Part shown: positions 8,733-30,749 of the stretch, in pieces
How positions within the stretch are numbered: the stretch's first letter is position 1
Layout: each line of letters starts with the position of its first letter
Assembly: GCA_019448385.1 (NCBI GenBank)
Contig: JAGTXO010000007.1
Coordinates: 248,001 to 312,000, forward strand
Length of the DNA: 64,000 nt
Reading direction: 5' to 3'
Source of the DNA: Diacronema lutheri
Taxonomy: Eukaryota > Haptophyta > Pavlovophyceae > Pavlovales > Pavlovaceae
Notes under the pieces: model-generated
The model's input: only the letters and a program-made list of their open reading frames with translations
The model's database searches: none
What the model was told of the DNA's origin: nothing
Made by a program: the position numbers and the translations under genes

Positions 8733-9960
8733 CTAGGCCGTCGAGACGCAGCCGGGCGGGCACTTGCGCGTGAACGAGCCGAAAAGGAGCGAGCGGCGCG
8801 AAAGCCACGTGACGTCGAGCAGGCTGCGCGGACCGTGCGGCATGCAGCCCACGGGGCAGCAGACAAGCGGATCGTCCGTGATCGTGAAGCTGTAGATGTC
8901 GGAAAAGGCGTTCCACTGGTTGCCCACCTGGTGCACGAGCGTGCCGTCCACGTACACGCCGTAAAAGGCGCCGGAGTCTCGTTTGAACCCGTCGTTGTAG
9001 TTATCGGAGGCCAAAAACATGTACTCGCCGGCCGGCAGCATTGCCGTGTGGACGACGAGCACCTTCTCCGTGAAGCCACCCTTGATATCCATCGCAACCT
9101 CGTGGTTCAGCTCGGCGTCGACCCTGTACACCCGCACCCAGAGCTCTTCGTGCGCCCACTCGTCGCCGTAGACGGCGATCGTCACGTTGTGCTGCCCCGT
9201 CTCCGAGATCATCGGCACGTCACTTGGCGTCGGCGTGTCCATCGGGAGAGGCGGGAGCGGATGTGTGAGCGCCTGCACCAGGAGGGGCGGACCGCCCGTC
9301 CGAGTCACGGGGTACGCGTTGGGCATCATGCGCTGCGCCGCCGCGATATCGAGGTTCTCTTCGACCACGCCGCGTGCGGCGAGCGCGAGGATCTGCGCGC
9401 GGATCACGAGGGGGTCCAACGTGTTGTACGCAGCGGCGATCTGCAGCGCGACGCCGGCGACATGGGGCGCAGCCATGCTCGTGCCCGAGGCTTCAACGGA
9501 GTAGTCCGTCGTCCTGTCACCACGGCTGAACACGCTGGCCGTGGGCACGTCGACACCGGGCGCAAAGATGTCGACGCACGGGCCCCAGTTGGTGTACGGC
9601 GAAAGTTGATCGTTGCTGTCCACCGAGCCAACGTTGATAGCGCCCGGCGCGCTGCCCGGGTTGTAAGCACACGCGTCCCAGTTGTTGTTGCCCGCGGCCG
9701 TGACCACTGTCACGCCGCTGCGCACCGTGTCGGCGACAACCTCATTGAACGAGCTGTACTTGCTCTCCTCGTCGGGCAAATATTCGTACATTCCAAAGTC
9801 AAATGGACCCAGCAACGAAAAGTTGATCACCTTCTTGGCCGCCGTATGGTTTTGCGTATAGATGGTCAAGCCAAATCCGATCAGGGGCACGATCGCGCCC
9901 CGAGTGCAGCGCGGGCCGTTCGGAAGGACGTCCTTGTGAGGGAGCTCTTCGCGTTTGGCG
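8733..9960 (-). CDS. Subtilisin-like serine protease (S8), C-terminal part
   Basis: Secreted-type subtilase, 3' portion. Visible are KKVINFSLLG, the oxyanion-hole region VVTAAGNNN, FAPGVDV, and the catalytic-Ser motif EASGTSMAAPHVAG. A C-terminal beta-rich region follows (YGDEWAHEELWVRVYR...GEYMFLASDNYNDGF) and ends in a Cys-containing tail. The catalytic Asp and His are not in this frame. A possible His region (GGHGAVCSGLVASS, near 10060) lies in another frame, so the 5' end is unresolved: intron, frameshift, or interruption by the neighbouring island. The frame can be read upstream of 9960, but there it overlaps the mega-gene's acidic tail and is not credible. The complementary N-terminal half of a subtilase is on the same strand at 31434-32109. 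Confidence 0.72.
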
Positions 9961-10260
9961 AGCGGGGGAGCACGACGCGCAGCGTTGCTGCGGCGGCGTG
10001 CGGGCGGCGAGCAGCGGTCGGGCTGCTCGCGACGAGGCCGGAGCAGACGGCGCCGTGGCCGCCGGCGCAGGTGACGCGCGCCGACGAGCCGTAGCGAGCG
10101 TCCGTGATCCGCACGGCGGTTGGAGCGGGCCGGCTGGTGCGGCGCGCTCGGCCACGGGTGGCGGCGTGCACGGTCGTGCCGCGCGCGGCACGCGTCGCCA
10201 GCCGCGCGCGACCTGGGCAGAGCCCGCAAAGCGTCGACCGCTGCGCGGCTCGGCCGTGCG
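9863..10260 (-). other. Region 3' of the Fanzor stop; candidate element end or guide-RNA region
   Basis: About 400 bases lie between the mega-gene's stop codon and the putative element edge. In TnpB/Fanzor systems the guide RNA usually comes from the 3' end of the gene and the adjoining element end, with the guide lying just outside. By analogy this is where one would look here. The sequence shows no convincing gene of its own apart from a possible out-of-frame subtilase His region. Nothing in the sequence alone proves an RNA. Confidence 0.25.
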
Positions 10261-13200
10261 TCAACGCCGGCCGCGCTTCGGCCCGCGCGCGCTGCCGCCG
10301 CCGGCACTGGCGCTGGCAGCTCCGCGGGCGGGGGTGCGGGCGCGAGAGCCGCCGCCGCCACCGCCGCCGCGCCCGCCGCCGTCGTCGCCACCGCCGTCGC
10401 CGCCGCCGCCTCCCCCGCCGTCATCGTCGTCGTCGCCGCCGCCGCCTCCGTCGCCGTCGCCGTCGCCGTCGCCCTCGCCGCCGCCGCCGTCGCCGCTGCC
10501 ATCGTCGTCGTCGTCGTCGTCGCCCTCGTCGTCGCCCTCGTCGTCGCCGTCGCACTCGTCGTCGCAGTCGTCGCCCTCGCCGTGCACCATGCGCTCCTCA
10601 CGCTCCCACACCTCGCCGCGCGCCCACCAGGCGAGCACGAGGGCAAAGCGCTCAGGCGTCGACGTGGTGTCGCGCCCGGCCGCGTGCGCCGCCATGTCGT
10701 GCACGTCGTAGAAGATGTTGCGCGCGGCGTTGTAGTCGCGGTGCACGGGCTTCTTGCCGCCGTTGCACGCCGGGCAGATGACGAGCGCGTGCACCGTGCG
10801 CGTGCCGCCCTTTGCCACGGGCAGGCGCGGGTTCTGCGCGAGCTCCGCGCCGCAGCGCTGCAGCCTGCCGCCCTTGGCGAGCCGCGGCATCGAGCAGTGC
10901 ATCGACGTGTACGGCTCGGGCACGAAGACGGCCGCGACGCCGCGCCGCCGCAGCTCGCGCAGCAGCCCCACCTGGAAGGCGGGCGGCGCGCCCTTGGGCT
11001 GCGCGCCCTTGTGGTCGCGCAGCCACTTGCCCACGCACACGAGCAGCCGGTCGCGCGTCACGCCGTCGACACAGTGCGCCGCGATGAGCGCCTCGGCGAC
11101 GCGCGCCGCGTTGGACCGCCCGCCGCTGTCGCGCCGCCAGCGCTCCTTCCGGCGCGCCGGCGCGTCGTACACGTGCTCGGCGGCGCGCTCGCGCACCCGC
11201 GCGCTCTCGCGGTGGAAGGCGATGTATTTGCCCGCGTCGAGCACCTTGGCGCTGTGCGCCTCGCCAAGCCGCGCCTCGTCCGCCTCCACGCTGAACTCCT
11301 CGCCGCGCCCGTCGGTGCGCACGCGCCGCCGCGCCGCGTTGGTCTTGGCCGTCTCGCGCGCAAAGCCCGCGGCGCGCGCGCGCGCGCGCTGCGTGAACTG
11401 CCGCCAGACGGCCGCCCGCCCGACGTGCGCAGAGTAGGTGGTGATGTTGCCCATGTTCGGGTCGGCCGCGACGACGACCGCCGCCTCGACGTCGATCGCC
11501 CGCCGCAGCTCGGAGCCGAGCGCGACGGCGATGCGCCCGTCCGGCCGGCGCCAGCGGTGCAGGACGCCCGAGCCGCCGGCCGGCGCCTGCGCCTTCGGCA
11601 CGAGGACGGTCCCGACGGCGTGCACGGCGACGCCATCTGTCACCACCGACTTGACGGGCTGCCGGCCCGGGAGCGGCACGCGCGGCAGCGGCGCGAGGCC
11701 AACCCACGAGCGCCGCGCGTGCCACGGCAGATCGGCCGGCGGCCGCTCGCGCCCGGCGTAGTCGAAGACGCGGTTGGAGATGTCGAAGCGCGTCGCAAAG
11801 ACCGCGTACCTGACGCGCACGTCCGACATCGGCGGGGTGTTGCCGTTTGTGCCTGTCCACTTGATCGGCTCGCCATCGTGGTCGCGCAGGTCCAGCGCCT
11901 TGAGCCGCGCGCGCAGCTCCTTGCGCTCGTCGTCCGGGAGCGTCACCCAGATGGCGTTCGCGGTGAGGCGCACGTTGCGCGGCACCTGCGCGCAGCGCGC
12001 GGCGCGCGAGCGCGCGGGCGCGTGACCAACCTGGCCGCGGGGCGGCGCGCACGGCGGCGGCGCGCGCGCTTGGGCGCTCGGCGGCGGCAGCGGCAGCCGC
12101 GCCTCGCGCGCACATTGTGCGTGCGCAGCGGCGCCACATTGTACCGCGGCGGCCGTCCGGTCAGCTGCGTGTGGATGTGCGCGAGCCGGCAGAGCAGCGC
12201 CTGCCCCTCGGCCACGTGCTGCAGGGTGCGGATCTGCACGAGGAAGTAGCGCGTCGTGTGCCGGTCGTAGTTCCACCTTTTCGTGGGCGTGCACTTGTAG
12301 TCGATCTTGTGGAGGACCATGTCGGGCAGGTGGCGGTCGAGCGCGGCGGGGCAGCCGACGCGCGCGCCCTCCACGTCGCCGCGCAGCAGCCGCTCGCACA
12401 GCTCGCGCACGCGCGCGTTTCGCTGCATCTCGGGCAGCGCGACGAGCGCCTCGTCGCGCTCGACTGCCGCGCGGACGACGTCGCGGAGCAGCCCGTTCAC
12501 GACGCGCGATGGGTGCATCAGGCACGCGGTGGACACCTGCGTCGCCTCCGCCTCGAGGATCTCCGTGAGGCCCACCGCGCAGACGGGCTGGACGCCCTCG
12601 GCCATCTCGCCGACGGCGCGCGCCGTCGCCGCCTTGGTCTGCGCGGCGGCTTGCTCGGCGGGCTTGCCTCGGGGCGCTGCACCGTACGTGCTCTCGTCCT
12701 TGTGCCAGCCGATGGCCGAGAAGATCGCACGGACGGATCCCTTGTCCATCGTGGTCGACGTGTGCACGCTGGTCGACGGGCCGCCCGACGCCGCGCCGAC
12801 GGCCTGCGCGCTCGCCACCGCAGCCTCGTCGCGCACCACCTTGTTGATGACGCGGTACGCCTGTGTCGTGAGCCTGTGCACGGCCGCCGCGATGCGCCGC
12901 AGCTCCTTCCGCGCACCGGGCTGCGCCGTCACCGCCTGCGGCCCCGCGTTGAGCGTCGAGCGCTTGACCACGAAGCCCGGGAGCACGCTGCCGCGCGTGC
13001 GCGCCGTCGCGCCGCCGGCGGCGCGCGCGCTCGGCGCAGCGGGCTCGTCCACGCGCGCGCGCTCGACGCCGCGCGCGCGGGGAACGCTCGGCGCGCGCGC
13101 GCCCGCGGCGTCGCGCGCGCTCGCGGCGGCACCCGCCGCGGCGCGCTTGCCCGCGGCGCCCGACTCGCCGTGCGCGCGAAGCGGCGCCGACGCCAATGCC

Positions 13201-16200
13201 GACGCCGCGCCCGCGCCGCCGCTGCCGCTGCCCGATCCGCCCGCGCGCCGCTTCTGCTCGTCGCGCGTCTTGCGGAACTGGGCGACGAGGTCGCTGCTCA
13301 CGTTGGCCTCAGGCTCCCACGTGTCGGCGCTCTCGTCGTAGCCCCGCCACCTGATCCGGAACTGGAACGTCACCTTCTTGCCCGCCTTGCGGCGCTCGTC
13401 GACGACCGCCTCGACCTCGTACGTGCGCGCCTCCTCGTCGACGCTCGCGCCCGCCGCGCTCGCGCCCGTGTCCGGCCACCCAGCGACCGTGCCGCCCAGC
13501 CTCTCGGCGGCCGCGCGCAGCTGCCGCTCGCGCTGGGCGGCCGCGGCGCCTCGCGCGACCAGCGCGGGCAGCATGCCCGCGCCGCCCGCGAGGCCGTGCG
13601 CGCCGACGCTGGCGGTCATCAGCGCGTCGAGGCACGCGAACGTTGCGAGCGCACACGCGCCATCGTCGCCGCCGCGCGGCTGCGAGCGCACGACGGGCGA
13701 TGGCCGCGGCTCCCCCTCGGCCGCGAGCAGCGGCCAGATCGCACTGGCCAGCGCGACGGCATGCGCGCCGACCGCGACGGCCACGTCCGCGTCGAGCGGC
13801 GCAAAGTCGTAGCGCACGAGCGCGGCCGGGCGCGAGTCGTCCGTCGGCCGGTCGGCGACGAGCAGCCCGACCGGGCGCGGCGGCTCGCCGGACGGCGCGG
13901 CGACGGGCACGCAGAGGAGCACGACGAGCAGGCGCGGCGTGCCGCCGAGCAGCGCGCGCGCGGCATCCGCCCCGTCGGCTCCGCCGCGCGCGGCCGCGGC
14001 GAGCAGCTCGGCCGCGCGCGTCGGGCCCAGCGCCGTGCGCGCGTCCTTGCGCGCGCGTGCGCGGGCCGTGTACGCGGCGCAGGCGTCGTCGAGCACCGCC
14101 GCGCTGGGCGCGGTGCCAGTCGTCGCCCACGCGCGCAGCGCGTCGCGCACCCGCGTGACGATCGCCTGGTCGACCGCCGCCTCGCCGGCAGCGTGCGCCG
14201 GCGCGCACGCCGGCGGTGCGGCGGCAGGCGCGAGCGCGGGCGCGCCGTCGGCGCCGTCAACGCCGACGGCGCCGTCGGCGCGCCGCCACGCGAGCTTCGC
14301 CTCGATCTGCTGCCGGACGGCGTGGCAGTGCCGGTCGATGCCGCGCGCGTCGTCGAGCGCGGCCAGCGCGTCCTCAGCGGCGGGACGGCCGCTCGCGTCC
14401 GCGACGGCCTGCAGGCAGAGCAGCGCGGCCGCACGCGCGTTGCACGCGCTCTGCGGCTCGGGCGCGAGCGCGAGCTCGAGCTCGAGCGGCGACGCGCCTC
14501 GCGCCGCGGCGATCGCGTCCATCAGCACGTCCAACCGCTGCACCAGCGCCCTGTGCGCGTCGCGCGGCGCGCCCGTCGACGGCGCGCGCGAGCGCGTCGC
14601 CAGGAGCCCGAGCGCGCGCGCCGGCGCGCCCGCCGGCGTGTGCAGCACGAGCAGCGCCGCGCCCGCCAAGCTCGCGTTGCGCGTGACGAGCGCGAAGATG
14701 CGCGTCGCCTCGTGCGCGCCCACCGACGCCCAGATCGCAGCGCGATCGGCGTCCGTCTGCGCGTCGCACAGGTCGCGCACGTCGTCCGGCGCGAGCAGCG
14801 CGCCGCCGCCGGCGGAGCGCGCGACGATCGCCCGCGCCTCCGCCACGAAGACGGCCTGCGGCAGGTCGGCGTGGCGCGCGTCGACGATGGCGCGCGTCGC
14901 GTGCACGCCGAGCTCCACGCCGCGGTAGAAGGCGCGCGCGTTGGCCGCGCGCGCGTGCGCCGGCCGTCCGTCCGCGTTGCGCCTCGCGCGCGCCTGCTTG
15001 CTCGTGCGCGCGAGGCCGTCGCGTGGCGGTGGCGGCAGCGTGGCGAGGAAGCGCGCGGCGGGCGGCGGCGCGCGCACGCCGCGCTGCCGCCGTGCGATGG
15101 CCGCGAGCCGCCGGCCCGCCGCGCTGCCGCCCGCGCCGACGTGCTGCCAGCGGTTGAGCGCCGCCGGTGGCGGCGGCGGCGGCGGCGCGGCGGCGGGCGG
15201 CGGCGCGACGGCGGGCGGCGGCGCGGCGGCGGGCGGCGGCGCGGCGGTGGGCGGCGGCGCGGCGGCGGGCGGCAGCGGCGGCGGCGCGGCGGCGACGGCA
15301 GCACCAGTCGGCTTGTCCGCCCACGCACCCGAGACGCTGTCCCAGGCCTTGCCCGGTGGCGCGCGCCCACGCGGCCGCGGGTGGCGGGCTCGAGCGGCGG
15401 GGGGCGGGCGGCCGGCGCGCCAGTCGAAGACAGGTGCAACCGTGGCGGCAGGCGCCGAGTGCAGCGCGTCGGTCACAGAGCGCGTGGTGCGCGCGGCGAC
15501 CGTGGCGCGCATGGCGGGCGGGCGGTGAGCAGCGCCCGCCGGCGCGCCGGCGGGCGCGGCAGCCGGCGCGCCGGCGGGCGCGGCCGCCTCGAGCCCGGCG
15601 GAGGCGCCGCGCTTGCGCTTGCGCGTGCCGCCGCGCGTGCGCCTGCGCGCGCGCCCGCCGCGCGCCCGTTCGGCCTGCGCGTCGCCAGCCGCGTCGCCGG
15701 CCGCGTCGCCGCGCCGCACGTAGACGACCGCGAACGCCTCCTCGCCGGTCCCGTCGACGCCGCCGCGCGCGCGGCGCAGGACCGACCGCCACTGCAGCCG
15801 CCGCGCGCGGCCGGGCTCGCACGCAAACCAGCGCCCACCGCGCCTGACGACGGCCACAAAGTCGTCGTCGCGCCGCCCGCGCCGGCGCGTGCGCAGCAGC
15901 ACGCACTGCACGTCGAGCCAGCCCTCGTGCCAGTCGGCCGTGCTGGGGGCGACGCGAATCGACTGCGGGAGCTCGACGCCAAAGCCGGCGAGGCGCACGA
16001 TGTGCGCGACGATGACGCTCGAAATGGCGGGGGCGCTCGACGGGTCGCCCGCTGCAGCGAGCACCGCCCCGCCCCAGTGCTCACGCGTGACGCAATCCGC
16101 GTCCTCGACGTGCACGTGCGCCACGCTCGCGCCGAGCTGGTGCAGCAACGCGCAGATGTCGGCGTCGACCGTCCTCTCCTCCTCGGCCGCCTCGGCCGTG

Positions 16201-19200
16201 CCGCGGGCGGCGGCGTCGCCCGCCGGCTGCCCGAGGTACGCGATCGCCCGCTCGACGGCCGCGCGCTCCGCACGCGCTGCGCTGGCGATCGCCGCATTGC
16301 CGACGGGCGCGCGCAGCGCCGCGATCGCGTCTTGCAACGCCGTCGCGTCGCCCGTCGCCGCCGTCGCCGCCACCGCCGCCGCGCTCGCGGTGCCGTGCGC
16401 GACGGCGTGCAGCGCGGCGGCGCGCGCGGCGGGGATGCGCCCGTCCAGCGCGAGCACGAGCGGCGGCCCGGCCGGCGTCTGCTGCCGCCGGTGCCGCCGG
16501 CTCGCAGCCGGGTGGTCGGCGCGCGCGCGCTCGAGCCGCGCGCGCCGCTCGACGACGCGCGCCCAGAAGGCCTGCACCCTCGGCTGCGCGAATGCAAGCC
16601 AGCCGACGCCGCGCGTCACGACGTGCACGACGATCCGGTCCTCGTGCCTGAGGTACTGCACGTAGAGCGCTTTGCGCACGCCGAGGACGTGCATGCCGAG
16701 CTGCAGCTGATCGCGGTGCGGCTGCGGCGGCCCGTCCTCGTGCGCCGTGGCGCCCGCCTTGGTGAGCGTCTTCACCTCGACGAGGACCTGCTCGTTGTCT
16801 TCGGGGAGGATGGCGAGCCCGTCCGGCGAGAAGGCGAACGGCGCGCTCTTGTCGTGCGGGTCCGCACGCACCATCGGCAGGTTGCACACGACGGTGATGC
16901 CGTACGCGGCCGCCAGCTTGCGCAGCGCGACGGCCTCGCCGAGGATGCCCGCGGTCGTCGCCTTGGTCCGCACCTCGCGCCGCCGCCGGTGCACGTACTC
17001 GTCGGTGAGCGTCTCGTGCGCGACGCCGGCGTTGTCGTTCACGACGTCGCCAACCTTGCTGCCCGTGACCTCCTCCCATCGCTCGTCGTGCCAGCGCGGG
17101 CTGCGCTGCGCGGGCGCGCCCGCGCCGACGGCGTCGAGCACGCGGCGCAGCGCTGTGCCGTCGGGCGCAGCAGGCACGCGCGCGCGGTCCTGGGCCTCGC
17201 GAGCGTCGAGGACGCGGCCCGTAGTGGAATCTTGGGCTAGGTCGAGCTTGCTCGCCTCGCCGTAGCGGCTCTCCAGCTGGCGCGGTGCGTCGGCAGGGCC
17301 GCCGTCCGTGCGCGCACCCGACGCGCCCGCCAGTGCACGCGGCGCAGCGTCCGAGGCGCCCGCCGCGCCCGCGCCGCCGCCAATCGCGCCAGCGCACGCG
17401 CGCGCCGCGACCTGCGGACGGCCAGCCGCAGGGACCTCGTCCGCTCGGCCGGCCGCTGCGTCGGCCGTCCGCTTGGCCACCTCGCGCACGTCTCCGAGCG
17501 CGAGCGTGGCTGGCGCCGTCGAGCTCCCGTGGCGTTTGTTCCAAAACTCGAGCAGCCCGCCAAGGAAGGGCGTGCCCGTCGGGCGGTCCTCGGGCACCTC
17601 CGCCAGGATCGCGTCGACGCGCAGCGCGGCCGCCACATCGCAAAACGCGCGCGCGGCGCGCGCCATCCGCTCGGCGCGCGCGCCGCCGTCGTCCGCCGCG
17701 CGGCGGATGGCGTGGCTCACGTGCGCGACGCGGAGCGAGACGACGGCGTGCGCCGGCGCGCCGGCGCCCGTGCCGAGCGTGTGCCGCCGGATGGCCAGCT
17801 GCCCATCGCCCATGCGCGGCGGGAGCGACGCGCACGCCGCGACGGTCGTCGTGCCGGCCGCGCTGTCGCACAGCCAGCTCGCCTCGCCGCCGCCCGCAAA
17901 CTCAAAGGTCGCGAAGCCCTCGCGGCCGAAAAGCGCGACGAAGTGGTCGAGCACCGCCTTGTTGATCGCGCGCGCCGCCGGCCGCGTCGATGCGCCGCGG
18001 GCAGCGCCACCCGCCGCGCCGCGCGCATCGCTGCACGTCGCAGGGCAGGTGCAGCCGGACGCGCGCACGCCGTCCGACCGCGTCCGCGGCAGCTCGAGCT
18101 CGCGCACCTTGGGGCAGAACCAGAGCGGGTTGGACGCCTCGAGGCACAGCACGACGAGCCGCCCGTCCGTGCCGGCCAGCGCGCGCGCGTCGCGCAGCAG
18201 CTCGACGGCGAGCTCGGACGTCGCCGCGTGCACCGCCGGCTCGCCCGTCGCGCGGTCGGGCGGGAAGAGGCCGCCGCCGACGAGCGGGCTGGGGCAGCGG
18301 CCGAGCATCACGAGCAGCGGCGGCGGCGGCGTCTGCGGCGCCTGCTGCCCGACCGCAGCCGCCGTCAGCCCGGCCAGGTCGGAGCTCGTGCGGAGGGCCT
18401 TGAGCGCGACGCGCGAGCCGGTGCCCGCCTGCTCGGAAAACGTGGCGAGCATGGCGCACGTGCTCGCCCTCGCGCCGCACTGCCAGCTGACGCGCGCGAG
18501 GAGGCCTTCCAGCGTGTCGTTTTCGCGCGGCCGCGTGACCGCGTCGAGCGCCGCCGAGTCGAGCTGGAGGCTGCCGGGCGTGACGCACAGCACCGCCTCG
18601 TGGTAGGCGCGCAGCAGCTCCCTCGGCAGCTGCTCGGCGGGCGTCGCCGCCTGCCCGCCCACCCACCGTGCACCGTGGCCGCCGTCGCCCGCGCCCGCGA
18701 GCCGCACCGCCGGCCCGCCCGTGATCGCCGAGGTCGGTGGCGTGCCGAGCGCGTCGACGAGCGCGCGCACGGGCGCGACACGCCTGCGCGCAGCGTCCGC
18801 GCCGACGGCGAGCGCGGCGATCCGAGCGCCCTCCCATGCGCGCTCCCTCGCGTCGTCCCGCGCGGCCGCCGGCGCGGCGCCCGGCCGCGCGCCGGGCGGC
18901 ACCGCGCACGCCGCCGCGACGACCTCCGCGCGCGCGCCGGCGGCGTCGGGCGCGTGCAGCTGCGCGAGCGCGCCAGAGAGCGCGGCGGCCGAGCGGTAGC
19001 GGCCGTGCGCCGCGACGAGCGCGTAGAGCACGCGCAGCGCGGCCACGCCCGCCTGGTCGGGCGCGTCGTCAGCGATGCGCTCGACCTCCCACGTGCGCGT
19101 GGGCGGCGGGCTGCCGTCGGCCGGGTCCGGACGCAGCGCCCACGCGCGCTCGACGATCGCGTTGAACACGCCGTGCGCGGCGCCCTCGTCAAACTCGGCG

Positions 19201-20802
19201 GCGCCCGCCGCGTGCGCGCACCACCCGTGCACGCGCGACGTGGGCGCGTCCACGGCGCGCTGCACGACGAGCACCGCCGGCCGGTCGACGCAGCCGAGGC
19301 TCACCGCCGCGTGCTTGCCCTCGAGCAGCGCCGCCGCCGCAGCCTCGACCAAGGCGTCACCAGGCGCGTCGCCGACGACGACGGCACAGCCGTCGCCGTA
19401 CTCGGCCTGCATCGCGGCGACGCACGACGCGACAAAGTCGCCGCCCGCGGCCGCCGCGTGTCGCGCCGCCAGCATCCGGCGCGCGATGGCAAGCCAGACG
19501 TACTCGGCCGGCGCGCGCGCGGCGCGCGCGCGAGGCGCGCCGGCCGCGCCGCGTGCGCCCGCGCGTGCGCCTCCAGCGGCCGCAACGGCCGAGGCGGCTG
19601 GAGCGGCGGTGAGCGTGCGCCGCGCGCGCTTCGCCGGCCGCGTGATGGGCGATGCACCCGCCATCGCACCGCCCGCAGCAGCCGGTGCGGCCGCCACAGC
19701 GCCCGCCGCAACGCCACTCGTCACGACGCCCGTGGCGGGCGGCGCGGCGTCGGACGCGGCCGCGTCGACGGGCGTCGCGCAACTACCGCCAGCGGTCGCG
19801 GACGCGCCCGGCGACGCGTCGGCGAGGAGGTGGCGCAGCACGCCGCGCGCGAGCGCGACTCGCACGGCGAGCGTCAGCGCGCGCAGGCGGTCGGAAGGCG
19901 AGGCGTCGCGCTCGGCGTCGGCGGACGTGGCGGCAGCAGGCGGGGCGGCGGGCGGCGCGGCGGCGGACTGGGCGGCCGCCGGCGCAACCTCGTCGGCCTT
20001 GGCCAGCCAGACGAGCCCGGCGACTGCGAGCACGACGCTGTACGCGCCGACATCGTCACCCGCAACGCGCGCCAGCCGGGCGTGGGCGTCGGCCTCGGAC
20101 ACGGCGACGCGGAAGAGCACGTCGTCGCGGGCAGCTTGCTCGGCAAACTGACGCAGCTGCTTGGCCATCGTCACGCCGGCGACGCACGCCTCGCCCGCCT
20201 CTGCCTCGACCTGCTCGTCCTGGCCGATGGCGGACGCGCCGGCCTCGGCGCCAGCGTCGAGTGTCCGGCGGCGCTCGAGGGCAAAGCCACGCACACAGAC
20301 GCTCTGGAGGCCGCCGAGCGCGCCCGCCTTCTCGTGCAGCGCGCACGACAGCTCGACCACCGAGTCCACGCGCCTCGCGGCGGCGCCCCCCCGCTCGCCG
20401 CGCGTGGCCGCGCGCACGACGAACACCGTGAATTGCGCGCGCTTCGCCGCGCGCGCCGACGCGCACGCGTGCTTCAGGAGCCGGCAAAGCGCGGGCCTTT
20501 GCGCCGCTGCGCCCCGCGTGCACAGCAGCAGTTGGCCGCGCTCGTCGCCCAGCTCCTGCTCGACGGCGGCCTCGAGCGCGTCGTCCGTCAAATCGCCGTG
20601 CTCCGTCGAGGCGAGCGCGCGCGCAGCCGCGAGCGCCAGCTCGCCTGCGCCCGCGCGCCGCCGGCGGCGCGCATCGGCGGGCGCGTGCGGCGCCGACGCG
20701 TGTGACGACGCCGCCGCGTCCGCGCGCGCACACGCGGCGCGCAACGCCTCGCGCGCCGAGGCGGCCGCGCGCGCCCTGGGCGCGAGCTTCAAGAACGTGC
20801 GC

Positions 20803-20850
<48 letters not shown>

Positions 20851-23800
20851 TCGCCCTCGTCGCCGGCACGCGGCGGCGGTGGCGGCGGTGGCGGCGCGGC
20901 CACGGCGGCGGCAGCAGCGGCAGCGGCGGTGGTGGTGGCGGCGGCGGCGCCCAGCGCGGGCGGCGGAGGTGGCGGCGGCGGCGGAACGGCGGCAGCGGCG
21001 GCGGCGTCTGCGGCGGCCTTGGCGCCGCGCGTCTGCCGCGGCGCTTCGGCAGCGCGATCGCGGCTGCCCCCGCCGCGCACCGCGCCCGCCCCGGCGCAGG
21101 CGCCGCTCGGCGCACGCCCGCTGACCGCGCCAGTCAACGCGACGCGGAGGTGCTCGCCAACAGCGTACATGTCCGCCACGCTGAACGTGCGCGGCGCGGA
21201 TGCACCGCCCGCCGCAGCGAGCGCGGCGTCGTTGAGCGCGCCCACCACGGCGAGGCCGCACGTCGCGCCACGCTGCGCCGCGTTGTCGAGCAGCCGCGCG
21301 CGGCGCACGGGCAAGACGTCGAGGCCCGCCGCGTGCAGCGTGGCGGTTATCGACCTGGCACGCTTGAGCGCCTGCCTGCTCGGCGACGCGAGCGTGTCGA
21401 CAAGCACCGCGTCGTAGCGATGCTCGCCCGCGCGCGCGACGCGCACGAGGCGCAACGCGGTGAAATGGCCGGAGGCGGGCGGCGTGCCATCGTCACTGCC
21501 CGCACCGCCGCGCCCGCCCGGCGGGCTCCACATGCCGATGACCGCCTGCGTCGTCGCCTCGCTGTGCAGGCGGTGCAGCAGCGCGGCGCGCTCGGCGCCG
21601 TCCTGGAACGCCGCGGGCTGAGCGGCAAGCGGTACGTGGCAGACGCGCCCTTCGCCGGCCTGCCCGTGCACGCGCAGCACGACCTCGCAGCAAGCGTCCA
21701 CAGTGGAGGCGAGCATGTCGCCGCCCGCAATGCAGTCCACCTCTGCCTGCGGGATGCCGGCGCGCGCGGCGGCATCGGCCAGCCGGAGCGCAGCCGCGTC
21801 GCCCGCCCACGCGAGCAGCGCCGGGGCGGCGGACTGGACGTCGCGCTGCGCCACGGCGGGCTCGGCCGCGGCGGGCTGGGCAGCGGCTGGCTCGGCAGCG
21901 GCGGGCTGGGCGGGGGCTGGCGCGGCGGCGGTGGGCTCGGCGGCCGACGATTGCGTGGCAGGCTGCGGCGCGGCCAAGGCGGCGGTCGGGCGGGCGGCGG
22001 AGGCGAAGGCGGCCCATGCGGCGGCCGAGCACACGGCGACGAGCCAAAAGGCGGTGGCTGCAGACGGGCGAGCGGCCGGAGCAATGGCGGCCCGGACGGC
22101 AGAGGCGGCGACGACACTCGCGAAGATGCCGACGGCGCACCGGACAGTGGCGACGGCGACGGCGGCACCGGCACACGGGCGGCGGTGGGGGCTGTCGGGC
22201 TCGGCGGCAGGCTCGGCGGCATGCTCGGCCGAGGGCCGATCGGTGCGCGACGGCGGGCTGCGACTCGCGCGGCGGAGCGGCTGCGGTGCGTGCTGGCCGC
22301 CCGTCGCGCACCTGCGCTTGCGCTCGCGGCGCGCGTCGCCGCCACGCAATCGGCGGCCGACAGCCCGCTCTGACCTGTCGATTGATCTCCGCAGCCGGTC
22401 GCGCGCGCGCTTTGCCGCCCGCCGTGCGCGCCGCGGCGGTGCGCGCGGGCACTGGTCGGGCGAGCTGCGCGCGGCAGGCTCGCAGCAGCCGCCGTCGCGT
22501 GCGTGCGCGCAGCCTCGGTCGCACGGCGCGCAAACGAGGTCGTCGGCGCCATCGACGCCGTCGAGGCCGTCGCCGCGCGCTGCGGCTGCGAGCGCGCGTG
22601 CCACGCCGTCGTCGCCGGCCGCCGGCGCCGCTGCGGCGGCCGCGGCGTCGGCTGCACGGCGCTCGGGCTGCGGCTCGAGCGGCGGGACGGCGCCGGCCGC
22701 CGCGGGCGGCGCCGTGTCGAGCGGAGCAGCCGCGGCGCGCGCGCGCGCGCGCGCGCACCCTTTGCGCCTACCGCGAGACGCCACCCGCGCGGGCGCCACG
22801 CGCGCCGCGGCTCGGCGGCCGCGCGACCGGCGGTGCCGGGCGTGGCGGCGAGCGCAGCGCTCGAACTTGCGTCTGGCTCGGTGGCGGCGAGCCGGCGCAG
22901 TTGCCGCGCAATGCAGGGCTGCACGTCGAGGTGCGCCTCGTCGAGTCGCGAGAGGAGCTCGCGCGCGCGAGTGCCGAGCGCGGCGCCGTCGCACTCGGCA
23001 CGCGCGCCCGCCGGAGCCACCGAGCCTTCGGGGTCGCGCGGCGCGAGCAGCTCGCGCGCAGTCGCGAGCAGCTCCGCCTGCTCGGCGGTGGGGATGCAGG
23101 CGCGGCGCAGCGCGAGCTCTGTGTGCGCGGGCAGGTGGGCGCCCACGGCCTCGGCGTGCATGAGTAGCGCGCGCGCCTCCGCAGGTGCGTCCGCCTCGCC
23201 CATCTCGGACGCGGCGAGCACGCCCGCCGCCTCAGCGGCGAGCGCGAGCCGCGGCGACGCGAGGTCGCGCAGCGACCGCAGCAGGTGCGGAGGCAGCGCG
23301 TGGCCACGCGCCTTGACGCGCTCGAGCAGGGCGCGCGCGCGCGCTGCATCGTCCGCAGAGCCCAGCGCGCACTGCTCGATCAGGCGGCCGGCCGCGCGCT
23401 TGTCCTCGCGAAAAAGCTGCTCGCGGTGGAGCGCGCGGCGGGTCTCGCGCTTGGCGAGCGCGTCGGCACGCGCCCTGCAGCCCTCGTCGGCGGCGGCGGT
23501 GAGCTCGGCAACGCCGCCAGGCTCGGTGGCGGCGGCAAGCGTGGCGGCGACGGCGCCTACCTCAGCGGCAGCAATGCGGTCGTCAGCGCGCTTGGCGGCA
23601 GCGCATTTGACGGCGGGCTGGTCGGCTGGCTTGGCGTCAGGCACGGTGGGAGGCTGGGCCGTGGACTGGGCGGCGGGCTCGGCGGTGGGCTTGGCAGCGG
23701 CTGGCTTGGCGGCGGGCTCGGCGGCGGGCTGGGCGGCGGGCTGGGCGGCGGCGGGCTCGGTGGCGGGCACGTCCGCCTCGGCCAACAAGAGCGGCTCGAA

Positions 23801-25696
23801 GCGGTTGCTCGCGCGCATGCTGGCGCGCGGATGGCTCGGCGGCAGAGCAGCGGGCCGAACGCCAGCGCCCGCGCCGAGGCCTGGCCGCGCTGGCTGCCAG
23901 GGCTGCTCGCGCTGCTCGCGCTGCTCGCGCTGCACGCGCTGCACGCGCTGCTCGCGCTGCTCGCGCTGCTCGCGCTGCTCGCGCTGCTCGCGCTGCTCGC
24001 GCTGCTCGCGCTGCTCGCGCTGCTCGTGCTGCGGGCACCACGTGCGCTTGCGCCAGTTGTGCTGCGCATCCCCGCCCTCCGCTGCCGGCTCAAAATTTGC
24101 GCATGCCCAGATTTGGCCGCGCCCAACAATTGGCGTGCGCTGGTCCTGCGCGCGGCCGGCGGGCAAGAGGTCGGGCGGGCGGGAGGCGTAGGGGATGCGT
24201 GAGGGTGCTGCACGCTATACGCGCAAACTTTACCTGGCGCGAACGCAAGCGCCGGGCGCCACGCTGTGGACAGCGGACGGCGTGCGCGTGCGAGGCACTC
24301 ACCGCCATTGGCAATGCGCGCGTCGCGGAGACAACTTGGCGGGCCTCGCACGCAGCTGGGCCGATCGCCGCCGCAGAGGTGTCTGCAGCCGTCTCCGCGA
24401 TGCCGATCGTCGCATCTGTTGGCACCGCTGCCATCTGCCGCACCCGCGACCAGGCTGCCGACAGGGTCGGCGCGTCGGGCGCCGAGCTCGGCCACGCAGG
24501 CGATGCGGCCGACGGCGGTGACGCTGAGCCCAGCGCCGGGTCCAACGGTTCCGCGTCGAGCCGGCTGTAGAAGAGCATGCTCGCACCACTTGCCCACGCC
24601 AGCGCGTCGGACTGAGACAAGTTGTGCATCTGCGCGGGCAACGCGCGTGCGTGCGGCAGGCGCGCGGCGCGAGCTTTCAGGCCACGCGCGCGTGCCGCGC
24701 GGGAGGACGGGGCGGCTGCGGCTGCGATCAACCGCCGGTCGCGGCGCCAAGCGGCCGTGCGCGCCGCCGCACGTTGTCGTCGTCGCACAGAAACCAAGCC
24801 CCGTTGCGGAGCACGATGGCGACAAGGTGCCCGCTCGTCGACTCCTCGCCCAAGTGCACGACGGCGGCGACGAGGAGGTAGTCGCGCCCGCCGAGTAGCA
24901 GCCGCGGCGCGCACACGAACGCGTGCTTGTTCTTGCACTGCGAGCCATTGCCGCACGTCGTGCGCGGCACCTCGACGGCAATGCTGGCTGGCATGAGCAC
25001 GTCCGAGCGGCACGCGTCCGGGCTGCCACCCTGCGGCGGCCCAGCGACGCCCCCCAGAGCGTGTGCGAGCGTGCGCGCCGCATCGCCGCCAATGCTGACG
25101 AGGATGGCGATGCCCTCACCGCGCTCGCTCGAGGCCACAGCGATCGGCTCGAGCACTACGCGTCTGTCGTCTTCGAAGGCAGCAGCGAGCCCGGGCACTC
25201 GGCCGAGTAGCATCTGGAAGAACTCAGCAGCGTCCTGCTGCGTCCCTCGCGTGCCACGGCCCAAGATGACGTCGACGACGGACACAAGACACAGCTGTGC
25301 CGGCGCCTCGGTGTCCTCGAGCAGCGTGCCAAAGTCCCGAAAAAGCGCCTTCTCGACTCTTCCCGCACGGCGCGAAGCGGAGCGGGGCATCGGACGGAGC
25401 ACGTTCAAGGCGACGAGCGATTGCGCGAGGGCGTTCACGTAGCACGCGTTGCCCTCGTTTTTCACGCCTGCGCCGCGCCGCGCAGCGCCGGGTGTGCGGG
25501 GTGCGCACGCAAGGTTTACGGCGGGTCGGAGAGAGGCCGACTGGGAACGCGCCGAACCCGGCGAGCCGTGCAGGCGCTCACCACGCGGCACGTCGGGCAC
25601 TCTCACCGGCCACATCGGGCCGATGAACGCGCCCCCCACAGGCTGCCGGCCGACGACTCGGAAGTTGCTCCAGGCGCTGCGCCGTGCACGCGTCAT
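10261..25696 (-). CDS. Giant USP-C48-YqaJ-chromodomain-Fanzor fusion protein
   Basis: One predicted protein of about 4,990 residues from exons 25696-24773, 24629-24234, 24145-22772, 22667-12114 and 11985-10261. All four introns are GT-AG, phase 0 and 88-143 bp. Three junctions restore family motifs: CDDDN/MHNL...ASMLFYSRL (USP His box to end), CAG/GTAAAG to DQRTPIV, and PLRTHN/VPRNVRLT (Fanzor N-terminal part). Order: USP (1 to about 335), REQ-rich linker and helical repeats (about 440-900), C48-like protease (about 1250-1400) with degenerate relatives, YqaJ-type nuclease (about 2750-2950), a second weak USP-like C-terminal pattern (about 3070-3220), chromodomain (about 3980-4045), Fanzor RuvC nuclease (about 4125-4840), and an acidic Gly/Asp tail. 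The fourth exon is a single open frame of 10.55 kb. The start at 25696 is the first ATG giving a sensible N-terminus and is uncertain. Separate genes remain possible; transcripts would decide. Confidence 0.65.
10560..12995 (-). other. Fanzor/TnpB-type RuvC nuclease domain
   Basis: The N-terminal lead-in is GSVLPGFVVKRSTLNAG, then YNVAPLRTHN/VPRNVRLTANAI across the intron at 11986-12113. Next come TDGVAVHAVGTV, RuvC-I AADPNMGNITTYS with WRQFTQRAR, RuvC-II FVPEPYTSMHC, and a zinc ribbon (MHC...RCG...CPAC). RuvC-III is HRDYNAARNIF. The three catalytic acids are D4591, E4773 and D4833. All the hallmarks of an intact RNA-guided-type nuclease core are present. The DPNM form of RuvC-I and the following FTQR motif resemble the eukaryotic and giant-virus Fanzor group rather than bacterial TnpB (knowledge-based, not searched). 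Confidence 0.85.
13255..13435 (-). other. Chromodomain within the giant protein
   Basis: Reads TYEVEAVVDERRK, VTFQFRIRWRGYDES and ADTWEPEANVS. This has the usual chromodomain layout with three aromatic cage positions (Y of TYEVE, W of RWRGY, W of DTWEP). Chromodomains in transposon proteins bind methylated histone tails and bias insertion to particular chromatin. It sits about 80 residues before the Fanzor domain in the same open frame. Confidence 0.85.
16560..17110 (-). other. YqaJ/lambda-exonuclease-like nuclease domain
   Basis: Begins with SPRWHDERWEEVTGSKVGDV (the R...TGS entry motif), then GEAVALRKLAAAYG. The PD-(D/E)XK core SPDGLAI and VLVEVKT follow, with D2847, E2862 and K2864, then HRDQLQLGMHVLG, which matches the family's Q-x-Q-type helix. 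All catalytic residues are present. Such domains resect double-stranded DNA ends and partner with recombination proteins in phages and some large transposons. Confidence 0.8.
21200..21600 (-). other. Ulp1/adenain-like (C48) cysteine protease domain
   Basis: GHFTALRLVR (H1299), YDAVLVDTL (D1322) and LLDNAAQRGATCGLAVVG (Q and C1368) give the H-D-Q-C order and spacing of C48 peptidases. Weaker copies of the Q...C pattern occur further on (VVRSQPRGGDDGACALATF near 13670; LAPEPQSACNARAAALLCL near 14440; IADDAPDQAGVAALRVLY near 19060, lacking the Cys). They suggest internal duplication with decay. Confidence 0.6.
23900..24030. repeat. Short tandem repeat encoding an REQ tract
   Basis: Nine-base units (GCTCGCGCT on the plus strand, with GCACGCGCT variants) are repeated about 14 times. 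In the mega-gene frame they encode alternating Arg-Glu-Gln after CPQHEQ. A charged, probably helical linker near the start of exon 3. Confidence 0.9.
24530..25450 (-). other. Ubiquitin-specific protease (C19) domain
   Basis: Cys box GVKNEGNACYVNALAQSL (C85), GTQQDAAEFFQMLL (the QQDA motif), and the His box STSGHLVAIVL (H290) with GAWFLCDDDN. Across an intron (24630-24772) the closing motif is ASMLFYSRL. A Cys-containing segment (TTCGNGSQCKNKHAF) precedes the His box. The catalytic triad looks complete, so this is probably an active deubiquitinase. Confidence 0.85.
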
Positions 25697-27440
25697 GCGC
25701 GCGCTGTTGCGGGCTACGCAGCAGAAACGACGGGGGAATAGGCGAGCGAGGGTTGGGCGCAGATCAGCGTGGTGGCGCGGCAAGACGAGCGCGCGCCGGG
25801 CGCCTGGCGCGGAGGCGCCCCGCGCGAGGACGCGAGCCGCTTCTCGCACCGGACGGGCGCCCACGCGCAAACCGGCTTTAGAGGGCCAGATGGATGGTGG
25901 CCGATGACGAATCAGCGCGGCACCCGCCTTTGAAAAAGGGCGTCGCGGCACTGCCCGAAAGCGGTACGGACGAGCCGGGCGCCATGCATGGAACGATGCG
26001 ACGGCGGCGTGAGCGCGGGACGATCTTGCCCAGGCAATTGTGCGCGTTCAGCGGGCGGCGCGCGCGTTGCGCGTGACGGGGCGCCGAGCGGCACACCGGC
26101 GGGGACCCGCTCGCCGCTGCCGTGGCATCCTCCGCTGCCGGCGTGCTGGCACGCACGCGCATTGCCGGCGCGAGGGGACGGCGAGTGCGCCTCGGCCGAA
26201 CAGGCGCGAACGTTACGCCCGAGCGCGTGGCCGAGCACCGGATGGAAGCATGCTTCGTCATGCGGCGGCGACCCGCGCCGATTGCACGCAGCGCCGGCCT
26301 AGGCGCGCATCCGCCCGACGCGGATTTGGACGACGCGTCGACCGGCACGCCGAGCGTCTGCGTCTGCCTCGCGGCCGGTCGCGCCGGCCCCTCTTCGGCT
26401 CGCGGCCGCACGTGCGCCGCGCGCCGCTTCGGCGCGCGGCGCGGCGCGCCCGGAACGCGCGGAACATACGCGCGGTGCGCGGGCACGCCCGCAACGCGCC
26501 ATTTTAGCGCGAGCAGTTCGGCAAGCTTGCAGCTCGCGAGCAGCCGGGCATGTGCCGCGGACACACAGTTCGCTGTGTGCGCCGGCCGCGACGACACGGC
26601 GTAGCGGCGCGAGGCTGGCGGCCGGGGCCACGGGCGTAATCGTGGCGCGACGCCATGGCATGAGTAATAAATCCATGAGTAATAAATCACGGGCCCAAGC
26701 TCACGCGCTGTACGGCCTCTCCCGCATGGCGTGTCGGATCCGCCCCGCAGCCAGGACCGCATTTTCGCTCGGCCACGCAGCGGACCACGGCGCGTTGTGC
26801 GCGCCCGGCGCGAGTGGTGCGAGTGGCGGGCCAAGCCGCGTCGCCCACGGAGCCCGCCCCCGGCTCGGCGGCACCGCTACCGCTTGCTCGCCGGGCCGCG
26901 CACCGCCGTCGCCGCCGCTGCGCGCTTGCCCTGCTTGCCGGCAGGCGGCGGCGGCGGCGGCGGCTGAGGTTGCGGCAGCGGCGCGAGCGCGACGCCGGAC
27001 GGCGGCAGCGCCGACGGCACGCGCGCGGCGGCGACCCACGCGGCGTCGGGCAGCGCGCCGGCTTGAGGCCCCTGCTTGCCGGCCGCATTGGCGCCGCCCT
27101 GCGCGCCCTAGAAGGGCGCGCAGGTACGCGGGCCAGTCGCGCGGCGCGCGGTGTTGGCGAGCACCCGCCGGCTGCGCGTCGGCCGCGAGCGGCGCGGCGG
27201 GCGTCGCGCCGGCGGGTGCTGGGCAGCACCGCGCGCCGGCGTCGCGCCCGCCGCCAGCGCGCCGCCCGCCGCCGGCGCCGCGCGTGCCGTCCGAGCCGCG
27301 CCCGCCGCGCCCGCCGCCACCGCGCGCCGCCGCCGCGCATTCGCGCGCGGCGGCGACGGCGGCCGCGGCGAACGCCGCCGCCGCCGCCGCCGCCTCGCCA
27401 CCGCTGACCGCGCGGAGCACCTCTTTGAAGACGACGGTGC
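25697..27440. other. No confident gene
   Basis: The stretch upstream of the mega-gene contains long minus-strand frames of Arg/Ala-rich composition without motifs. Two tandem copies of CATGAGTAATAAAT lie at about 26657-26688. It may hold the mega-gene's promoter or further 5' exons; nothing can be assigned. Confidence 0.5.
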
Positions 27441-28990
27441 GCGTCACAGGGTCCGGGCCAAGCGCAAAGCGGATGCGCGACGCGTGCCCGACGCGCGAAG
27501 CGGCCACGTAGAGCTGGCCGTGCGTGAAGCACGGCTCGGCGAGCCACACGCCCGCGCACCCGAGCGCTTGACCCTGCGCCTTGTTACGCCGGCCGCACCG
27601 GGAACTGGCGGTGCAGCCATGCAAACGCGAACGTGCCCTCGTCGGGCGAGTGGTGGTCGATGCGCGCGATGAGCACGGTGCTGTCGCGCCCGGCGGCCGC
27701 GCCGGGTCGCGCGCACTCGAGCAGCCGGCCGCCGGCGCGCACGCCGCGCACGACCAGCCGCGTGCCGCTGCACAGCCCCTCGCCGAGCGAGAGGAGGCGA
27801 GTGGCTACGAGCTCCGCCGGGTAGGCCGAGACGCCTCGGGCAGCTGCACGGGATCGAGCGGGAATGCGCCGGGCATGGCCCCCGCAGGCGGCACCGCCGC
27901 GGGAAAGGCGCCGTCGCCGAGGCTGCGCGGCAGCTTCGCCCACTCGCCCGCGCCGAGCGCGTCGCCCGTGTCGCGCGCCGCGTTCGAGGCGCGAGAGTTC
28001 TCGACCAAGGCGTACGGCCGATCGTGCTGCCACGATGCCGAGTACTCGAGGCAGGAGCGCACGATCTGCGCGCGCGAGCCGCGCCGCACCACCGGCAAGC
28101 ACTGGCAAAAGTCGCCGGCGAGCAGCAACGTCTTGCCGCCGAAGCGCTCGTCGACGCCCGTCACGTCGCGCAAACACCGATCGAGCGAGTCGAGGCGGCC
28201 CCGCTTCTGCATCGGCGCCTCGTCCCCCACGATCATTCGCCGCGGCGGCCACGGAGCGCCCGCGCTCGGAGCGCGGCACGCCATTGAACGGCTTGCCCGT
28301 CCGAGTCGGCGCCGACGGGCACCTTGAAGGTCGAGTGGAAGGTGCGGCCGTCGGGCAGCAGCGTGGCGGCGACGCCCGAGGACGCGCACACGACGACCGC
28401 GTGCCCATCCGCGCGCACGGCGGCGATGATGGCGCGCTCGACGAACGTCTTGCCCGTGCCGCCCGGCGCGTCGCAAAAGTGCAGCCGGTCGCCCACGCCG
28501 CGCAGCGCCGAGTCGACGACCGCGCCGTGGAGCGCGCGCTGCTGGCCGGTCTCGGCCATCGCCGCGCGCGCCGCCGCCGCGCTCGCAGCCTGCTCGGCGC
28601 GATCGTAGCCCTGCGCGCGCGCGAGCTCGCGCCCGCCCGGCCCGGCCGGCGCGCGCGCCGTGCGCAGACCGGCCACCGCCGCGAGCGCCGCCGCGCGCTC
28701 GCGCTCGTCGGGCACGTACAGCCCCGTGGAGTCGAACGTGTCGGCCCAGGCGGCCACGCTGTACGAGGCGAAGGCGTCCGAGCCGGGCTGCGGCCGCTGC
28801 TCGGCGCGCTTCGGGAGCATGACCCCGCACACGTTCCACTTGGTGCCAAACATCGAGCCCGTGAGCCCCGTGTAGACGCAGTCGAGCTGCGTGGCGATGG
28901 CGCAGACGTCCTCGTGCCGGATCTCGTCGACCGGTTCGCCATCCGTGGCGTCCAGGATGGCGACTGCGCCCGGGCCGTGACGCCGCGGCG
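27440..28990 (-). pseudogene. PIF1-type DNA helicase, decayed
   Basis: Recognisable helicase pieces occur in three frames. Frame one has DATDGEPVDEIRHEDV, then the Walker A block FCDAPGGTGKTFVERAI and CASSGVAATLLPDG. Frame two has Walker B MIVGDEAPMQKRG, FGGKTLLLAGDFCQCLPVV and ENSRASN. Frame three has LLSLGEGLCSGTRLVV and HRQFPVRPA, then a stop. A return to another frame gives NKAQGQALGC and FTHGQLYVAASRV. Shifts fall near 28240, 27840 and 27590. The family's conserved residues between QFPVRPA and NKAQGQ are missing, and so is a long stretch before LSLGEGLC. The 5' part is absent. Introns could explain one break but not the internal losses, so a pseudogene is the best reading. Confidence 0.75.
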
Positions 28991-29124
28991 TCGTTCGGCT
29001 GCGTCACGGAGGAGCGCCATCCGTGCGCCACGGAGGAGCGGCAGGACCACGACGCGGCGTGACGCTGGACGACGCCATGCTGTCGAGGCGCCATGCTGTC
29101 GAGCCGCCATGCTCCGAGGCGCCG

Positions 29125-29435
29125 CCGCTTTCTAAAAGGGTGTAGGGTGTAGGGTGTAGGATGCAAAACAAGCCCTCCCCACATTTGGGCCCGACGTCAT
29201 TCCTTCTTTCGTCACAGCGTCATTCCTTCTCCCCCCTATGGGACTTTCATAACCGTACGTATCCTACACCCTACACTATGCAAATACCTAGAGAATAGAT
29301 ACATCCTACACTAAGTAAAGGTACTCGTATGTGAGTAACGTCACGGCTTCGAAGAAGGAATGACGTCGGGCCCAAATGTGGGGAGGGCTTGTTTTGCATC
29401 CTACACCCTACACCCTACACCCTTTTAGAAAGCGG
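29125..29435. mobile_element. 311-bp element with about 84-bp terminal inverted repeats
   Basis: The left arm, 29125 to about 29208, starts CCGCTTTCTAAAAGGGTG. It is the exact reverse complement of the right arm, about 29352-29435. The direct 5-bp repeat CGCCG flanks it at 29120-29124 and 29436-29440, as expected of a target-site duplication. Each arm carries GTGTAGG repeats (three in tandem), and the 140-bp centre is AT-rich. There is no coding capacity, so this is a MITE-like, non-autonomous DNA transposon. Near-identity of the arms suggests recent insertion. Confidence 0.88.
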
Positions 29436-29854
29436 CGCCGAAGGTGGGAGGATGCCACCCGTATGCGCGCGTTTGAACGTGCGCGGACGGCCGTTGGCTT
29501 CGCGCCCTTTCGCCCACGGTTTGCGCGCCAACGGACCAGTCCTCCGCGGGCGCCGCGCATCGTCTCAGGGGCGGTCGGTGTGGTACGCCGCGCGCATCGT
29601 CAGCGCCGCGGCGTCGAGCTCGGCGAGCGAGGGCGCGTACGTGACGCCGCTCAGCACCTCGTCCGCGCCCGCCCTCGTCGCGCTCGCCGCCTCCGCAGTG
29701 CGCGCAGGCGGCTTCGTGACGGCACGCGAGGCCACGCCGCGCGCCGCAGGTGCCTTCGCGCGCTGCATCGTCTGTCTGCCGGTCCGACGCGCTCTGCTCT
29801 GAACGAACGGACGGCACGCCCGACGAGATCTCGTCGCGTGCACGCTCGCACAGC

Positions 29855-30687
29855 ATGTACCCCCAGAACGTCTCCGAGCTGCTGCCCGACGAGATCTTCG
29901 GCGACGAGCTGCTCGTCGACCGGCACTACCGCGTGCGCATCCTTCAGCGCGTCGCCCGCCGCCGCGATGCGGCCGAGGCCAACTTTTGGCTCGACGGCGG
30001 GCCCGCCGACTCGGTCGTCGGCGCGTGCATGTGCGGCCGAATCTACGCGCTCAAGTGCATGGGCCGGCTCGTCCGCGGCGCCCGGATCCTCGCGCTGCTG
30101 CGCAAAAATGTGGCGCTCGCCACGTGCCGCGCACACCTCATGGGCCACATGCTCCAGCGCATCGTCGGCGACAGCGGCGTCGCGCGGCTGCTGCAGCTGG
30201 TTGCAGCTCGTTCGCGAGGATCACGACACGCTCAACGCCGAGCACCAGGCCTTGGAAGCACAGCATGACACCGGCCAAGTCATGCGACGGCATGTGCGCG
30301 CGCGCCGACGCGCTCTCCAAGGACCTCGCACGGGCGCACGAGCACGCTCACAAGCTCGATGGCTATCTGGTGTGGTGCAGCGAGCGCCTCGGTGAGAGTG
30401 ACTCTTTCAACGGAGCGCTCGAGAACCTGAACACGCGGTGCAGCATGAGATGTGCTGGCTCCACGCCGAGATGTCGTCGCTCGTTGCGAGTTCGCCCGAG
30501 GCTTACGCGAACGACAGCGAGGCCACCGACTTCAAGGACCACGGCGTGTGCGTCGAGTTCGATGTCTTCAACCGCGACGGGGTCGAGGGCGCGCCCGTGC
30601 CCGCGACCGCGCCCACGAAGGCAGAGCCGGGCATCGAGTCCGAGTGCATCGCGCCCGCACAGGCAGAGCCGGGCAGCGAGTCCGAAG

Positions 30688-30720
<33 letters not shown>

Positions 30721-30748: not shown

Positions 30749-30749
30749 G

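Follow-up and report, generated by a model that had tools for sequence, protein, structure and literature searches.

Fanzors are small nucleases that ride on transposons, and their role in the spread of these transposons is unsettled. PIF1-like helicases are the type found in Helitrons, and the integrases of chromoviruses carry chromodomains. Described Fanzors combine a catalytic D-E-D set with a TNB zinc finger, occur in eukaryotic hosts and sit on repeated DNA elements, all of which also applies to the Fanzor considered here, from the haptophyte Diacronema lutheri. It lies in a 64-kb stretch of the genome (the window; C5:248001-312000, positions given as w where needed), within a giant mobile element. 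The main open frame of this element contains a RecE/YqaJ-type exonuclease, then an HP1-like chromodomain and, beyond one 128-nt intron, the Fanzor.

The copy in the window is a precise 21.6-kb insertion:

9856..31438, minus strand: mobile element, window copy, 21.6 kb, with ends GTATAGATGG... and ...CCTATATA, each placed to within about 1 base.

The exact left boundary is common to six copies with unrelated flanks, the base preceding GTATAG at the element end differs among copies, and the right boundary at w31438 is also found in another copy, C5:716046. Both ends were placed in 22 copies, of which twelve measure 30.5-31.1 kb, five 26.3-26.9 kb and five 21.5-21.6 kb; the window copy belongs to the last class, and the largest family members reach 31.1 kb. 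Three copies were read throughout, namely the window copy, a 30.5-kb copy (C30) and the 26.3-kb C5:716046, and the interiors of the others in part. Searching the genome (G000; 43,492,796 bases in 103 contigs) with the exonuclease segment gave 150 matches at 99-100% identity (the best 150 of 235 candidates), and the genome therefore holds at least 150 near-identical copies of the element. A Fanzor profile search gave at least 148 matches among 150 scored candidates, a count that includes other Fanzor families. At 21-31 kb each, these copies would by our estimate account for several per cent of all genomic sequence. The published NIVA-4/92 assembly of D. lutheri has a guanine-plus-cytosine (GC) content of 73.25%, and its main annotated repeats are long terminal repeat (LTR) elements and long interspersed nuclear elements, as far as the accessible parts of the publication go (PMC8379373); the stems 'transpos' and 'telomer' are absent from its main text.

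No target-site duplication was found among 17 copies with both flanks (18 fetched): the longest direct repeat over nine offsets is 0-3 bases in 16 of them and 5 bases in the remaining one. Terminal inverted repeats are not above chance, the 60-base end-to-end score being reached by 350 of 500 random sequences. The right flank opens with G or C in all but one of 41 copies (40), and in 10 of the 41 the right end falls within 0-10 bases of the start of a ~120-bp dispersed repeat (AACGRCGCTT, at most 1 mismatch), against an expected frequency of 0.0014 per flank as calculated from the frequency of the pattern in the window. This adjacency is a strong target preference. One such ~120-bp repeat lies at w32915-33035, and a first look at the genome gave 288 candidates. 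Several of the repeats near insertions show internal deletions and small fillers that, by eye, resemble break-repair scars.

The main frame and its parts, all within the element, are as follows:

11943..23231, minus strand: main open frame, 3,762 codons, uninterrupted; its coding part is taken to end at 12114.
16650..17111, minus strand: RecE/YqaJ (lambda-exonuclease type) nuclease, from profiles, carrying the motifs SPDG, EVK and Q in this sequence.
13269..13421, minus strand: chromodomain, from its Pfam match.
12114..12986, minus strand: probable N-terminal part of the Fanzor (VLPGFVVKRS start), by position and in the same frame as the chromodomain.
11986..12113, minus strand: intron of 128 nt, GT...CAG, joining PLRTHN to VPRN, as read from the sequence.
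10261..11985, minus strand: C-terminal exon of the Fanzor, with RuvC residues, zinc-finger region and acidic low-complexity tail.
9856..10260, minus strand: region from the Fanzor stop to the element end, where position would place a guide (omega) RNA.

A frame of 3,762 codons is above chance and real: a control set of 200 first-order Markov sequences, each 31 kb long and matching that span in composition (79% GC), had longest frames of 837 codons on average and of 1,782 codons at most. Copy C30 keeps a single coding phase over ~13 kb as judged by codon-phase GC, with a few 360-base windows deviating. Across the 150 exonuclease matches, the frame that holds the exonuclease has at least 4,000 codons in 109, at least 4,500 in 82 and fewer than 3,000 in 21, and the longest runs to 6,136 codons. 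Where a chromodomain match follows 2-5 kb downstream of the exonuclease, the two share a frame in 92 of 103 copies and differ in 11, a count that draws on the best 150 matches to each domain and excludes four unrelated chromodomain matches. The copies are nearly identical, and the 92 cases thus trace back to a common ancestor whose frame was open and do not count as 92 independent tests. Good alignment between the main frames of the window copy and of C30 begins only near residue 468 of the former, and a search with the whole-length main-frame protein gave no match among 1,897 scored candidates.

The preliminary description of this DNA had proposed a single gene fusing a deubiquitinase, a C48-like protease, a YqaJ nuclease, a chromodomain and a Fanzor nuclease, and its last three domains are confirmed. 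The exonuclease matches RecE-like exonucleases in PHROGs (phrog_434, expectation value E 1.8e-16) and the lambda-exonuclease family in NCBIfam (TIGR03033, E 1.6e-5, below the model cut-off of 68 bits); the Pfam match itself is weak (YqaJ, PF09588, E 0.016, below cut-off). The PD-(D/E)XK core SPDG...E-x-K...Q of YqaJ/RecE exonucleases is present, and the predicted structure has a mean predicted local distance difference test score (pLDDT) of 40.9. The chromodomain (PF00385, E 5.3e-12) matches 48 distinct PDB sequences at E ≤0.001 (best 2.2e-11), headed by CDY-like and HP1 proteins, and, read against the HP1 positions, it presumably retains the three aromatic cage residues.

The Fanzor exon carries the TNB domain (PF07282, E 4e-6; 27.3 bits against a cut-off of 26.3) and the RuvC residues D616 (w11463), E798 (w10917) and D858 (w10737), all three conserved in an alignment with a 46% identical relative, P0013. 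By this catalytic D-E-D and the TNB zinc finger we assign the predicted protein to the Fanzor1/TnpB family. The junction PLRTHN/VPRN is, as proposed, a GT...AG intron (w12113-11986). The part at w12114-12986 has no Pfam match; we take it to follow a Fanzor pattern as well. A second, distant Fanzor family also occurs in this genome (L001-L008 and L112), about 30% identical to the element Fanzor over ~110 residues. At L112 (C9:378500-383700), the one longer locus of this family that was read, Pfam finds neither chromodomain nor exonuclease, and a chromodomain fusion in the other Fanzors of this genome is not borne out there.

We give about an even chance to the reading that the largest gene of the element encodes a protein, or a polyprotein, that is several thousand residues long and has exonuclease, chromodomain and Fanzor, and that the element copies itself by recombination after a guided cut. 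The Fanzor, with an RNA from the 0.4 kb past its stop codon plus flank, would cut a matching site. The exonuclease would then resect the cut ends, the helicase encoded upstream would unwind the donor, and a copy of the element would be inserted through recombination or end joining, which would fit joins that lack a target-site duplication. The chromodomain would guide the complex to methyl-lysine chromatin. More speculatively, and as a long shot, the element could represent a new superfamily of giant elements that lack any transposase, with Fanzor, RecE-like exonuclease and chromodomain in one protein and the helicase separate, and that combine RNA-guided cutting with phage-style recombination.

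In C30, Pfam scans took in L015 and L016 on both strands and L014 on its plus strand; in the window they took in frames P0001, P0002, P0003 and P0005, and in both copies additional single open frames. Window frames of near-identical sequence stood in for the minus strand of L014, and the scans of C30 ended 0.3 kb before its end. Within this scope Pfam matched no transposase or recombinase. In particular, no tyrosine recombinase of the kind expected for a Crypton or Starship was matched, though a remote one could escape, nor was a DNA polymerase B, capsid or integrase as in Polintons or virus-like elements. A viral origin was also considered and set aside: among viral contigs, no relative of the Fanzor, of the exonuclease or of the N-terminal helicase part could be confirmed, and the Fanzor alignment gave no confirmed relatives in genome contigs.

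Further coding parts lie upstream of the main frame:

27830..28943, minus strand: remnant of a PIF1-like helicase gene (PF05970, E 2.7e-23), upstream of the main frame.
24773..25696, minus strand: USP exon 1 (PF00443, UCH, E 8e-15), with USP46/USP12 among the PDB matches.
24630..24772, minus strand: USP intron, GT...AG, after the His box, as read from the sequence.
24303..24629, minus strand: USP exon 2 (MHNLSQ...SMLFYSRL), ending at a GTGAGT donor-like site, as read from the sequence.

The deubiquitinase of the preliminary description is well supported, as both boxes of the UCH domain that mark USP (C19) enzymes are present on the minus strand (GNACYVN, the Cys box, at 25453-25433; GHLVAIV, the His box, at 24832-24812). 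Its proposed junction is likewise a GT...AG intron, followed by an exon that contains LFY; we take SMLFYSRL to be the usual end of the USP fold. The USP and Fanzor introns are the two examined of the four in the preliminary description, and both hold. The helicase of the window lacks an N-terminal part that C30 has, as seen in the alignment of the two copies. This part of C30 (237 residues at L016:6738-7448, minus strand) matches nothing in Pfam or PHROGs, and its PDB matches get no better than E 0.8; by eye, it presumably recalls the single-strand-binding proteins of large viruses. The preliminary description had also proposed an autonomous element. A giant element it is; autonomy of the window copy is unsupported because the helicase N-terminus is missing, the helicase is split and Pfam finds no transposase or recombinase in the scanned frames. 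The proposed action on host repair or silencing factors is speculative.

Several observations weigh against a working protein machinery of this kind. Between the window and C30, USP exon 1 (921 bases) has 32 substitutions at third, 44 at second and 36 at first codon positions, and one of the two frames of the helicase has 18:20:11 in the same order. The older, degenerate copies of the Fanzor region, L099 (C37:1013900-1018950) and L098 (C53:110000-115000), are identical at 78-98% of residues in pieces, and L099 differs from the window by 33, 35 and 32 substitutions in the main frame (1,298 bases) and by 22, 26 and 18 in the Fanzor exon (1,119 bases). Over the diverged part of the main frame, w19500-21823, six copies show 56, 36 and 34, a mild third-position excess that USP exon 1, the helicase and L099 do not show. 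Both introns diverge less than the adjacent main exons (7 substitutions in 142 bases for the USP intron, window against C30; 4 in 128 for the Fanzor intron, L099 against the window); USP exon 2 has 4, 5 and 10 substitutions at positions 3, 2 and 1 (327 bases, window against C30). Most of these series look neutral, as expected of dead copies, and with the introns less diverged they therefore offer no proof of selection on the proteins. In both copies examined, the window copy and C30, the helicase motifs are split between two frames. For the region where a guide RNA would be expected, the fold is not clearly better than that of shuffled sequences (z -0.91 and -1.17), and there is no Rfam match. 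The large unassigned parts of the element may hold an integrase of an undescribed family. The neutral substitutions, the split helicase, its missing N-terminus in the window copy and the lack of a transposase match in Pfam would all suit a passive passenger, whose proteins do not work and whose copying machinery lies elsewhere, for example in a rare intact copy or another element family. We consider this somewhat unlikely, as frames of at least 4,500 codons persist in the 82 copies counted above and the insertions and deletions in six aligned copies (from the 80 of 143 gap columns printed) mostly sum to multiples of three; recent spread alone could also explain either observation.

The remaining alternatives concern how the parts belong together. 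One spliced gene of ~4,990 residues, running from USP through the main frame to the Fanzor as in the preliminary description, would agree with the good GTGAGT donor at which USP exon 2 ends, so that a transcript may run on, and with the same strand and order of USP, main frame and Fanzor in the window and C30. Against it, C5:716046 has a main frame of 5,339 codons and no tblastn match to USP at E 0.001, an absence that rests on this one 26-kb copy read throughout. C30 (order: helicase, USP, frames below 500 codons, 1,345-codon frame, main frame, Fanzor exon) has its USP at element positions 6310-7806, the 1,345-codon frame at 11169-15206 and a main frame of 4,509 codons at 14866-28395, so that ~7.1 kb separate the USP end from the main frame start, with only frames below 500 codons before 11169. 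The element copies vary in their 5' half. A single USP-Fanzor protein is thus not general to the family, and we regard the single spliced gene as unlikely: fusion of USP to the other parts is doubtful from the arrangement of these frames, and USP, an optional module, more likely forms a separate gene. What stands of the proposed giant frame is an open frame above chance that is one gene of a mobile element, and what stands of the one-protein model is a Fanzor that, apart from an intron, continues the frame of a resection-type nuclease and of a chromodomain, without the deubiquitinase and the SUMO protease. Conversely, the Fanzor could be translated separately and the shared frame be an accident of high GC. 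The Val residues that open the Fanzor part and the exon in the window are both Met in L099 (MLPGFVVKRS and MPRN), and the relative P0013 also starts with MPR, although a Met given by gene callers may stand for another start codon. Both window codons are GTG, which is no usual nuclear start, and frames of this length are not expected by chance under the Markov control, which makes separate translation quite unlikely. A relative of Helitron2/Helentron elements that spreads by rolling circle and has lost its Rep would share with them a PIF1-like helicase and, as far as the accessible parts of the sources show (PMC4067079, PMC3627910), accessory protease and nuclease modules and the lack of target-site duplication. 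Fanzor1 is known within Helitron2 elements (PMC3627910, accessible part); hairpins seen by eye had also suggested this assignment. In contrast to these elements, no Rep (HUH) domain is found in the scanned C30 frames, the inverted repeats at the ends are not significant, and the target preference differs, with no TT or TTTT rule. The sole Rep-like match genome-wide (L036, C63:35738-36019) lies at no listed copy of the element and is possibly the remains of a true Helitron. A Helitron assignment was dropped because no Rep was found and the end repeats are not above chance, and we hold it very unlikely. The preferred reading remains a large protein or polyprotein with exonuclease, chromodomain and Fanzor.

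Two further features lie in the element:

21042..21830, minus strand: putative segment resembling Ulp1/C48 by eye, with H...D...Q...C order.
29400..30900, plus strand: probable gene near the right end, seen by eye, function unassigned, with no Pfam match in three open frames.

The C48-like protease of the preliminary description, and with it the removal of SUMO, found no support: the segment (263 residues) has no Pfam match at E up to 10, and its structure model (mean pLDDT 43.9) is too poor for use. Outside the window copy, a 189-bp tandem array at w6469-7361 (4.7 copies) recurs beside other copies of the element, for example at L098:1044-2253 (97%) and, inverted, at L013:7662-8358. We also note 21 contig ends that bear a copy. 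Ten of them (C1, C3, C5, C6, C8, C10, C12, C83, C91 and C92) stop ~2 bases or less from the left end of the element, C32 stops at its right end, and the other ten lie inside a copy or at most ~75 bases outside. These stops could reflect free linear copies or the clipping of corrected reads at an abundant repeat, and we lean to clipping. We rejected a telomeric reading of the contigs that begin at an element end, since the assembly has its TTAGGG telomeres at contig ends other than these.

No exonuclease-chromodomain-Fanzor protein is described in the literature searched, where most subscription papers were outside reach. The words haptophyt, fusion, YqaJ and chromodomain are absent from the Nucleic Acids Research 2023 Fanzor paper (PMC10711439), and no such fusion appears in the accessible parts of Bao and Jurka (PMC3627910), PMC10432273 and PMC11423790. 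The locus is a Fanzor-carrying element, and the element type itself may be new. If the protein is truly made in one piece, self-spreading elements can be built in a way that is new. In an element that is both recent and very abundant, the Fanzor stands in frame with a chromatin reader and a nuclease for end resection. Whether it serves copying by recombination is therefore directly testable, and the arrangement gives a natural template for genome editors that are aimed at chromatin and coupled to recombination.

The exonuclease resembles the phage RecE/lambda exonucleases (YqaJ) in its SPDG...EVK...Q motifs and profile matches, but it is found here in a eukaryotic mobile element, inside a giant frame. 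The chromodomain recalls those of LTR retrotransposon polyproteins, which in the accessible part of PMC6338049 are likewise carried on mobile elements, probably for targeting, whereas here it lies beside an RNA-guided nuclease and not an integrase. The Fanzors described so far differ from the one here, which belongs to an element of up to 31 kb and, one intron aside, has both a RecE-type exonuclease and a chromodomain in its frame.
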